Below are positions 12,603 through 42,180 of a stretch of 64,000 bases of DNA, one piece after another (the first letter of the stretch is position 1; every line of letters begins with the position of its first letter). This DNA comes from a halophilic archaeon SHRA6 (GTDB taxonomy: Archaea > Halobacteriota > Halobacteria > Halobacteriales > Haloferacaceae): NCBI GenBank assembly GCA_005239175.1, contig SOPS01000004.1, positions 682,001 through 746,000 of the forward strand. Direction: 5' to 3'. The notes beneath the pieces are model-generated. The model was not told the origin of the DNA. It was given only the letters and a program-made list of their open reading frames with translations, and did no database searches. A program made the translations under genes and the position numbers.

Positions 12603-12719
12603 CTCGGATGTAGCTGTCAGTGTGTTCCGATCTGTTTTCCGCAATGTAACCGGCTGTGATCAATTTGGAACGCGGATACTGTGATTCAAGATTCTATGCG
12701 ATCGGACTCGGATATGATC

Positions 12720-12815
12720 ATGGATCATATTGCCAACACCCCCATGGATCATATTGCCAACACCCCCATGGATCATATTGCCAACACCCCCATGGATCAT
12801 ACTGCCAACACCCGT
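12720..12815. repeat. 24-base tandem repeat, four copies
   Basis: Units begin at 12720, 12744, 12768 and 12792. The first three are identical and start ATGGATCATATTGCC followed by AACACCCCC; the fourth has one T-to-C change and a different end. There are no spacers, so it is not CRISPR. Because 24 is divisible by three, one frame stays open across all copies and would encode repeats of MDHIANTP. Confidence 0.95.
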
Positions 12816-29099: not shown

Positions 29100-30017
29100 A
29101 TGGCACGTATGAATCCGTTAGAGCGGTACGCCCCGCTCGTCGACGACCCCGAGGCCTTTCGTGCAGCGTGCCAACGGCCGCTGCCGTCGGTTGTTCGTGT
29201 CAACACGATCAAGGCGACAGCCGATCGGGTGGCTGCGGCGTTCGATGCCGAGGGCGTTGGATACGAGCCAATCGGGTGGCACGACGGGCTGTTTGCGCTT
29301 GCAGAGCGCGGGCCGGGGACGACGTGGCCGTACTTTCACGGCTGGGTCCACGGTCAAGAGGAGGTGTCGGCGCTCCCAGCGGTGGTGCTCGATCCAGATC
29401 CGGACGATCGCGTGTGGGATGCGTGTGCGGCCCCGGGAAGCAAGACCACCCAACTGTCGGCGCAGATGGGCGACCAGGGACTGGTCGTCGGGAACGACAG
29501 CAATCTCGGTCGGCTCTCGGCCCTGCGACACAACGCTGAACGGCTGGGCGTGACCAATCTTGCGGTGACGAATCAGGACGCGCGGAACTTCTCGCTGAAG
29601 CCGTTCGACTTCGAGGCGTTCGACGCCGCACTCGTCGACGTGCCCTGTTCGTGTGAGGGAACCTGTCGAAAGAACCCAACTGCACTGGAGGAGTGGACGA
29701 TCGACCACGTCCGATCGGTCACCGGCGTCCAGAAGTCGATTCTCTCGCGGGCGATCCAGGCGACAAAGCCCGGCGGCACAGTGGTCTATTCGACGTGTAC
29801 GTTCGCCCCAGAGGAGAACGAAGCCGTGGTCGATCACGCCCTCCAGACCGAGGACTGTCAGGTCGTTTCGTTCGATCTGCCGATTGACACCGCACCCGGT
29901 GTGACCGAGTGGGACGGAGCGACGTTCGATTCGGCCGTGACAGATACGCACCGGATCTACCCCCACCTCAACGATACCGGCGGCTTCTACTGTGCAAAGC
30001 TGGAGGTGACCGCATGA
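29100..30017 (+). CDS. NSUN-family RNA cytosine-5 methyltransferase
   Basis: 305 residues. It transfers methyl from SAM to C5 of cytosine in tRNA or rRNA. The SAM loop is APGSKTTQL at 111-119. The catalytic pair is C183/C185 in VPCSCEG and C233 in STCTF. The N-terminal PUA-less start contains FERY-like ERYAPLVDD. It lacks the C-terminal PUA-like domain that the fused bacterial RsmF has. The next gene, a DUF7122-type protein, may supply that part. Its last codons (KLEVTA-stop) recur in the micro-ORFs that follow. Confidence 0.93.
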   Translation: MARMNPLERYAPLVDDPEAFRAACQRPLPSVVRVNTIKATADRVAAAFDAEGVGYEPIGWHDGLFALAERGPGTTWPYFHGWVHGQEEVSALPAVVLDPDPDDRVWDACAAPGSKTTQLSAQMGDQGLVVGNDSNLGRLSALRHNAERLGVTNLAVTNQDARNFSLKPFDFEAFDAALVDVPCSCEGTCRKNPTALEEWTIDHVRSVTGVQKSILSRAIQATKPGGTVVYSTCTFAPEENEAVVDHALQTEDCQVVSFDLPIDTAPGVTEWDGATFDSAVTDTHRIYPHLNDTGGFYCAKLEVTA

Positions 30018-30052
30018 GAGCCGAGCGTGCGAGACTGGAGGTGACCGCATGA
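30014..30052 (+). CDS. Micro-ORF 1 (12 codons) in ATGA chain
   Basis: ATG at 30014 overlaps the NSUN stop (ATGA). It encodes MRAERARLEVTA and stops at 30050-30052, again within an ATGA. GGAGGTG precedes it by six bases. Peptide function is not known; it may exist only to relay ribosomes. Confidence 0.5.
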   Translation: MRAERARLEVTA

Positions 30053-30087
30053 GAACCGAACTTCCAAGACTGGAGGTGGCCGCATGA
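30049..30087 (+). CDS. Micro-ORF 2 (12 codons) in ATGA chain
   Basis: ATG at 30049 overlaps the previous micro-ORF stop. It encodes MRTELPRLEVAA and stops at 30085-30087. Same ribosome site and spacing as micro-ORF 1. Confidence 0.5.
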   Translation: MRTELPRLEVAA

Positions 30088-30122
30088 GAGCCGATCGAGC
30101 GAGTCAGGAGGTGGCCACATGA
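30084..30122 (+). CDS. Micro-ORF 3 (12 codons) in ATGA chain
   Basis: ATG at 30084 encodes MRADRASQEVAT; its TGA (30120-30122) overlaps the ATG of the DUF7122-type gene at 30119. It is the last relay before that gene. Confidence 0.5.
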   Translation: MRADRASQEVAT

Positions 30123-30685
30123 CCGACGAGCGTCGCGTCCCCGAGGACGATCGCCTCGCCGAAAACGTCGGCCAGCGGTTCGATCGACTGCCAGCAACCC
30201 CTGCGGACCGAACTGTCTCTGGGCGAGCCTCCCGCGAAGAGGTGATAGAGTGGTGGGTCGAGCAGTACGGCGTCGACCCAGCGATATTCGAGGGGTATTC
30301 GTTCTGGGAAAAGGGCGCAGGGAAGGTGTGGATCTACGCCGAAAAAGAGCCTTCTCAGGCGCTTCCGAGTCCAATCGAAATCGAAGCCCTCGGAATGACG
30401 TTCATGCGGACCCGCCAGCGCCACTGGAAACCGACGACAGTAGCGGTGCAGCGGTTCGGACAGCACGCCGAAAAGAACGTGCTCGTCCTCGAGGGCGCAG
30501 CGGCCGCCGCGTTCGCCCGCGGGGAAGACATCCCGTACGAATCGTGGGACGGCGACTGGGGATACCTCGTGGTTGCCCACGAACTCGCTGGCGGTCTCGA
30601 ACCGATCGGCGTCGGCCTCTACTTGTACGACGAGCTCCGATCGACGGTGCCGAAAGGCAGACAGGAGTCCCTGGCCGACCTCTGA
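30119..30685 (+). CDS. DUF7122-type protein, RsmF C-terminal/PUA-like
   Basis: 188 residues. It resembles the C-terminal RNA-binding part of RsmF-like NSUN methyltransferases: VIEWWVEQYGVDPAIFEGYSFWEKGAGKVWIYA, then ALGMTFMRTRQRHWKPTT, and a small barrel with AHELAGGLEPIGVGLYLYDELRSTVPKGRQESL. I recall this as DUF7122 in haloarchaea. It is translated through a chain of three 12-codon micro-ORFs from the upstream methyltransferase. A role as its RNA-binding partner is an inference from fold similarity and coupling. Confidence 0.85.
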   Translation: MTDERRVPEDDRLAENVGQRFDRLPATPADRTVSGRASREEVIEWWVEQYGVDPAIFEGYSFWEKGAGKVWIYAEKEPSQALPSPIEIEALGMTFMRTRQRHWKPTTVAVQRFGQHAEKNVLVLEGAAAAAFARGEDIPYESWDGDWGYLVVAHELAGGLEPIGVGLYLYDELRSTVPKGRQESLADL

Positions 30686-41572: not shown

Positions 41573-42031
41573 GTGACCCGTGTGTGTTTCGTCGGCTCCG
41601 AGGATATCTCGCTCAGGGCAGAACTGCTCTCGCGAGAGACCGCACGAGCGGCGCTTTCGACGTACACGCTCGCGGAGCCGTTCGCAAACTCGATCGCGAT
41701 CGACACCGTCAGTCTGGGCGCGGCCGTCTCACTGTGTAACGATCTAAACTGGTATCTCGTCCGGTTCGTCGACACGGTGTTGATTCGCGAACCGAGTGTC
41801 TCGACAGCAGAGTGGCTCTCGCGGGAGCTCGCAAGCGACGTCAGGAACCGCGAGCTGCCGCCCGAAGAGACTGATCGCTACCTCACCGTGTACGGCGTCG
41901 TCGACGACCGGCTGGTCGAACCGATGTACGTCACCCGCCGAGATGGGACGGTTCCCGAGTACGACCTCCAGGAGGTCGATCGAACGGTCATCGTTCGAGT
42001 GACTGCAGACGAATTTTCGAACGCCGAGTGA
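41573..42031 (+). CDS. DUF5804-type haloarchaeal protein
   Basis: 152 residues from a GTG. It begins TRVCFVGSEDISLRAELLSRETARAALSTYTLAEPFANSI and has a conserved NDLNWYLVRFVDTVLIREPSVS...EWLSREL block that I recall from DUF5804. No catalytic motif is obvious. The TATA box at 41543-41550 supports the start. Its stop codon (TGA, 42029-42031) ends exactly where a 30-base tandem repeat begins. The function is unknown. Confidence 0.8.
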   Translation: MTRVCFVGSEDISLRAELLSRETARAALSTYTLAEPFANSIAIDTVSLGAAVSLCNDLNWYLVRFVDTVLIREPSVSTAEWLSRELASDVRNRELPPEETDRYLTVYGVVDDRLVEPMYVTRRDGTVPEYDLQEVDRTVIVRVTADEFSNAE

Positions 42032-42150
42032 TCACGCGCCGGTCCGATCGTCAGTAATCGATCTCGCACCGGTCCGATCGTCAGTAATCGATCACGCGCC
42101 GGTCCGATCGTCAGTAATCGATCACGCGCCGGTCCGATCGTCAGTAATCT
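42031..42150. repeat. 30-base tandem repeat, four copies
   Basis: Units start at 42031, 42061, 42091 and 42121 and begin ATCACGCGCCGGTCCGATCG, then TCAGTAATCG. The second unit has two changes and the fourth ends CT. It fills the gap between the convergent DUF5804-type and cysteine synthase genes. There are no spacers, so it is not CRISPR. Confidence 0.95.
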
Positions 42151-42180
42151 GTCACGGCGATCGGTCGAGGACCTCCTCGA

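Follow-up and report, generated by a model that had tools for sequence, protein, structure and literature searches.

We have analysed a stretch of 64,000 nucleotides from a haloarchaeal genome (the window), in which two neighbouring genes on the forward strand are joined through a short tandem repeat. The upstream gene (29100..30017) encodes an RsmF/NOP2/NSUN-type m5C RNA methyltransferase of 305 aa, i.e., the catalytic half of such an enzyme, as assigned by PF01189, TIGR00446 and a PDB match. The downstream gene (30119..30685) encodes a DUF7122 protein of 188 aa, assigned by PF23437 and by the fold match of its AlphaFold2 model, and its MTDERR start is conserved at the corresponding locus of a neighbouring genus (L003). 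The gap between the two genes is 102 nt in the window. It is covered by a 35-bp tandem array on the + strand (30000..30133), a duplicated gene junction with 3.8 copies and a score of 163 in TRF, which a repeat search recovers as three 58-nt copies at an exact spacing of 35 nt, matching the reference at 84%.

As read from the sequence, the ATGs of the array are located at 30014, 30049, 30084 and 30119, and all four are part of an ATGA. Three micro-ORFs of 12 codons thereby bridge the methyltransferase and DUF7122 genes, with successive overlaps of four bases. Micro-ORF 1 (30014..30052) encodes MRAERARLEVTA before its stop and shares an ATGA with the methyltransferase stop; micro-ORF 2 (30049..30087) encodes MRTELPRLEVAA, and its unit has no counterpart in the sister species Halalkalirubrum salinum (G001); micro-ORF 3 (30084..30122) encodes MRADRASQEVAT and shares an ATGA with the DUF7122 start. 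The units of micro-ORFs 1 and 3 both have orthologues in H. salinum. Each ATG is preceded by a Shine-Dalgarno (SD) motif GGAGGTG, which lies within the methyltransferase gene (30002..30008), micro-ORF 1 (30037..30043), micro-ORF 2 (30072..30078) and, for DUF7122, micro-ORF 3 (30107..30113), respectively. The first of them is encoded within the C-terminus of the methyltransferase, which ends in KLEVTA. The initial annotation had already described the 35-base unit with its four ATGs, the ATGA overlap of every copy with the preceding stop, and the three peptides; the sequence agrees with all of these, and TRF and the repeat search agree on the unit. It had also placed GGAGGTG six bases upstream of every ATG, and here the motif is indeed present each time, while the measured distance is five bases.

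The array is far above chance expectation: a double SD-ATGA pattern was found in 2 of 171 genomes of the family, and the reversed control gave 0 matches. RNA folding of the array gives no unusual hairpin (z-score 0.42), and no inverted repeats were found in it. In addition, a sequence scan of 30018-30118 found no TTTA, TATA, TTAA, TTAT or A/T run of four, and no TATA-like AT-rich box able to serve DUF7122 separately. A collapse of the assembly is unlikely, because each unit has its own substitutions and the same architecture is present in two assemblies. Two other intergenic minisatellites can be seen in the window, i.e., a 24-bp unit repeated 4 times at 12719-12813 (98% match, with an ATG in every copy), and a 30-bp unit repeated 4.2 times at 42030-42156 (93% match), which follows immediately on the stop codon of an ORF spanning 41573-42031.

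We have further examined what the two proteins are. The methyltransferase matches Pfam PF01189 with an E-value of 3.4e-49 and TIGR00446 above its cut-off, and its best PDB match is E. coli YebU/RsmF (2frx), over residues 27-311 of 479. The DUF7122 protein matches PF23437 at 2.9e-29; a sequence search of it against the PDB gave nothing significant, a Pfam search gave no match to the RsmF PUA families, and we found no paper on DUF7122 in the open-access literature. Its AlphaFold2 model (pLDDT 84.6) was compared with the PDB by Foldseek, and the six best matches are all RsmF structures (3m6u/3m6w/2frx), with E-values of 4e-6 to 4e-5 and TM-scores of 0.49-0.61, given without the target range. After RsmF, the model matches PUA proteins such as MCT-1 and TruB. 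Thus the two proteins resemble RsmF/YebU, the catalytic half by sequence and DUF7122 by fold, and both match RsmF structures best, whereas the parts here are separate genes with a predicted translational link. According to the model, DUF7122 is probably the C-terminal half of RsmF (a linker and a PUA-like part) as a detached protein, where we infer the C-terminal position from its size, secondary structure and PUA matches, and the methyltransferase and DUF7122 would together probably be one RsmF enzyme split in two. The subunits of complexes are enriched among overlapping gene pairs (PMC10666635); if RsmF is split, its halves would be wanted together, which is consistent with this enrichment.

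In order to trace the origin of the array, we compared the junction with those of relatives, where the survey covered the loci in + orientation. In these loci, both genes adjoin directly. Nearly all of the pairs overlap through ATGA or GTGA, and the methyltransferase gene then carries an SD-like motif at its end. In the outgroup G163, a neighbouring genus, the KLEVTA end and the MTDERR start meet on a single ATGA without any insert. The 35-nt unit in turn is made up of CTGGAGGTGACCGC followed by the opening 21 nt of the downstream gene, in diverged form, which makes the array a copy of the junction. The claim of the initial annotation that the repeat duplicates the junction itself is thus borne out, and the variation in unit number among relatives that it had raised is seen at the species level: the comparison between species gives 3 units in the window, 2 in H. 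salinum and 0 in the outgroup. Overall, the comparison shows a single SD-ATGA overlap to be the ancestral state and strongly supports its later duplication. The duplication itself may have been incidental, given the other minisatellites in the window.

The units have not diverged evenly. The first units are orthologous between the sister species, and so are the last units, with differences at 3 of 24 non-core positions each, and the middle unit of the window shows 6-9 differences from the other units. This hints at an ancestor with three units and a subsequent loss in H. salinum, with numbers too small to settle it. Across the five units, 1 of 11 SD/ATGA columns is variable, compared with 12 of 24 in the remainder (p=0.027); the last SD in H. 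salinum reads GGAGGTA.

This architecture is not confined to the RsmF/DUF7122 junction. Between CbiE (cobalt-precorrin methyltransferase) and CbiA (cobyrinate diamide synthase), there is a 26-bp unit with 2 copies in the window's genome (MNENTEADR and MNENTEVDR; L122, G000:C1:299500-302700) and 1 copy in H. salinum (L124, G001:C5:163200-166400), while two among the closest relatives have an ATGA with the start codon and no repeat. At the junction of an RPA-type ssDNA-binding protein gene with its neighbour, a 35-bp unit is present in 0 copies in the window's genome and 1 copy in H. salinum (MSQPEAAVEVRS; L086:3567-3605, G001:C38), and ten relatives show a direct overlap. That is, the sister species differ in unit number at three junctions (RsmF/DUF7122, 3 vs 2; CbiE/CbiA, 2 vs 1; RPA/partner, 0 vs 1). 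From O-acetylhomoserine sulfhydrylase to MetX, both species have one 35-nt link, M[MT]LPETSVEGQP, with no obvious junction duplication (L123:1716-1754 and L125:1713-1751). Multiple links also occur elsewhere: in G031, three identical 20-bp units (MRCEVRR each; L133:1542-1605) are chained by ATGA ahead of a WtpA-like gene, and in G047, duplicated units link two MoeA-type genes (L130, G047:C11:229000-232200), where an extra base has merged two micro-ORFs and the end still falls on the next ATGA. Further links were found between PabB-like and PabA/TrpG-like subunits, between LysX and ArgC, and before UreE. The relay ORFs at different junctions span 7-18 codons, and their units differ in both sequence and length. 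Three congeneric species (G238, G277 and G338) share one relay peptide, MSYTEGSR, without a change, and all differences in the DNA that encodes it fall on third codon positions.

We have then searched haloarchaeal genomes for the pattern GAGG-N5-9-ATGA, followed after 8-38 nt by GAGG-N7-ATGA. The pattern requires a GAGG and an ATGA at either end, and junctions with GTG starts, weak SDs or a different spacing escape it. Among the 80 matches listed in the 171 family genomes, 52 have a spacing of 2 mod 3 (p=8e-9; the p-values for phase are indicative, since the matches are partly dependent, with arrays and orthologues counted repeatedly). The window's genome has six matches, whereas other members of the family average 0.4. 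We classed 76 of the listed matches by the upstream frame that carries the haloarchaeal codon signature (GC3 > GC2, stop-free). Where a real gene ends at the first ATGA and an ORF of reasonable length begins at the second, the family shows a spacing of 2 mod 3 in 29 of 30 cases, 0 mod 3 in 1 and 1 mod 3 in 0 (indicative p=3e-13). The 1 mod 3 matches with a downstream gene are of another kind: in 11 of 12, the upstream gene ends at the second ATGA, and these are ordinary direct overlaps beside a chance ATGA. The GC3-GC2 frame scores also led us to reject, for most matches, an account of the phase bias by internal methionines, in which the upstream gene reads through the first ATG.

The other families of the order behave in the same way, with 2 mod 3 in 62 of 89 matches (indicative p=3e-12) and 58 perfect relays. 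On the other hand, no bias is seen in genomes from this phylum that lie outside the order, with phases of 31/28/21 and thus 21 of 80 matches at 2 mod 3 (indicative Fisher p=1e-9 vs haloarchaea). Such a bias, seen within haloarchaea and absent outside them, indicates that the chain is under selection.

The preference for one phase has a simple geometrical background. If an SD-ATGA junction is duplicated with a unit of 2 mod 3, the next TGA is in frame with the previous ATG, and a coupled micro-ORF arises at once, given no internal stop. A unit of 0 mod 3 would only lengthen the downstream protein, and one of 1 mod 3 would put the ribosome out of frame. The initial annotation had pointed out that 35 is not divisible by three and that each link shifts frame yet stays coupled; the fact holds, and it is automatic for any 2 mod 3 unit of a duplicated SD-ATGA junction. 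Since the frame shift at each link follows from the unit length, the question for selection is which of the lengths persist. The serial coupling that it had read from the array is, in turn, strongly supported by the outgroups, the differences in unit number and the phase statistics.

Signs of translation can be sought in the substitutions. In orthologous relay ORFs, the changes over codon positions 1/2/3 are 12/12/27 (p=0.004), in a small sample that comes mostly from other junctions and in which one genus gives 10 of the 27. This third-position excess is as expected for translated micro-ORFs, with conservation as the ground for assuming translation. In E. coli, a fusion of the final 15 nt of the upstream gene to a reporter is enough. 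To our knowledge, reinitiation after 12-codon ORFs has not been measured in haloarchaea. The tested overlapping pairs of Haloferax volcanii show strictly coupled translation, and their downstream SD did not by itself initiate translation (PMC6728339); a gap of ~20 nt abolishes coupling in Haloferax (PMC10666635). Given this limit, a plain gap of 102 nt would decouple or silence DUF7122. All four junctions of the array combine an ATGA overlap of stop and start with an SD inside the upstream ORF, two features of termination-reinitiation (TeRe) junctions, of which the SD is common though not required. The likeness to Haloferax and the phase bias support the view that the translation of DUF7122 would depend on upstream translation.

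Based on the above analyses, we consider it likely that the micro-ORFs are a termination-reinitiation relay, whose main role would be bridging, i.e., to keep the coupling across a tandem duplication. The starting state was one SD-ATGA overlap, which coupled both parts of an rRNA methyltransferase of RsmF type that is probably split. The micro-ORFs would then have come in when 35 bp of the junction were duplicated in tandem and units were later gained or lost, and with 35 being 2 mod 3, each ATGA would double as a stop and the next start. A ribosome leaving the methyltransferase would then reinitiate at each 35-nt step up to DUF7122, and the phase, SD and ATGA would be maintained by selection. 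We infer that ribosomes use every link at the array and that the micro-ORF products are themselves without function.

Such a relay might do more than bridge. If ribosomes are lost at each link, the unit number would set the ratio of DUF7122 to methyltransferase as an adaptive dial, which would add to the relay rather than oppose it. The unit-number differences between the sister species at three junctions fit this idea, and serial reinitiation would lose ribosomes unless every step is fully efficient. However, a split enzyme is expected to need equal amounts of its halves, and neutral slippage with the phase kept predicts the variation equally well. We therefore regard ratio setting as a doubtful, though conceivable, addition, and a relay that keeps the coupling despite the duplication is the simpler reading.

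The array could also be a neutral minisatellite, in which a chance 2 mod 3 duplication has been tolerated, the micro-ORFs are idle, and DUF7122 is reached by scanning or through its own SD. The same window does hold more tandem arrays, and random unit lengths would give a chain in one third of cases without selection. But the phase bias of 29 of 30 seen at real junctions, which is absent outside haloarchaea, speaks for selection of the chain; the tested Haloferax pairs show neither scanning past ~20 nt nor de novo initiation at the SD; and it is just the SD and ATGA that form the conserved part of the units. Taken together, neutrality appears improbable. Still less probable are regulatory peptides, i.e., micro-ORFs that encode functional or stalling peptides controlling DUF7122: the relay ORF changes are biased to third positions, which ordinary constraint on translated sequence could also produce, while the peptides of different junctions have no sequence in common and those at the RsmF junction are plainly junction-derived and drift between units. 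An independent promoter within the array, for which a Haloferax gap of >50 nt could offer room (PMC10666635), is hardly credible here, where 30018-30118 is without TATA-like boxes, the gap is built of junction copies and the relatives have no gap at all.

The relay can be compared with several known systems. The MIRU (mycobacterial interspersed repetitive unit; Supply et al. 1997, reviewed in PMC12548453) is a short repeat located at the start of a gene, with an ORF that couples to this gene at -4 spacing, and the coupling is thought to buffer the insertion (PMC12548453); its copy number is variable (PMC3635867). The array is similar in that its repeat ORF has the -4 spacing to the downstream gene and its copy number varies, here between species. 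On the other hand, MIRUs are, by the same account, apparently mobile elements that insert at start codons (PMC12548453), whereas the units of the array are copies of their own local junction, and the host domain differs. A DNA search of the own and sister genomes gave only the array plus junction-like matches of ~20 nt, and we have rejected an interspersed-element origin because there is no related array elsewhere in the genome. The best reading by analogy is that the array resembles MIRU in its working, yet is not MIRU, and would be an archaeal, locally born analogue.

The coupled pairs of Haloferax volcanii (PMC6728339, PMC10666635) share with the relay the ATGA overlap, the SD in the upstream ORF and the haloarchaeal host. 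The known cases are, however, two annotated genes joined directly, while the relay ORFs are below routine annotation size and bridge gaps that these two studies would class as uncoupled. In the RTGA-coupled small ORFs of mycobacteria (PMC4633059) and in synthetic bicistronic designs (PMC5995908), a short ORF likewise brings the ribosome to the next gene, in the former by RTGA overlap. That ORF comes first on the transcript, whereas the relays lie between two long genes, are coupled on both sides and are sometimes chained. In the open-access literature, we found neither two-sided relays described in archaea nor a rule on the phase of duplicated junctions there.

More broadly, it is possible, as a tentative extension, that haloarchaea hold an unannotated class of micro-ORF relays, some of them born from tandem duplication of SD-ATGA junctions, which couple genes over apparent gaps and through whose unit number evolution could adjust the output ratio of neighbouring genes. 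The data suggest an evolutionary rule, by which duplications of coupled junctions would persist when their length is 2 mod 3. The junctions with 0, 1, 2 and 3 units that occur naturally in the sister species are ready material on the efficiency of serial reinitiation. At present, haloarchaeal gaps of >20 nt are taken as a sign of translational independence; if the relays are true, some of these gene pairs would be coupled after all, through linking ORFs that annotation has missed.
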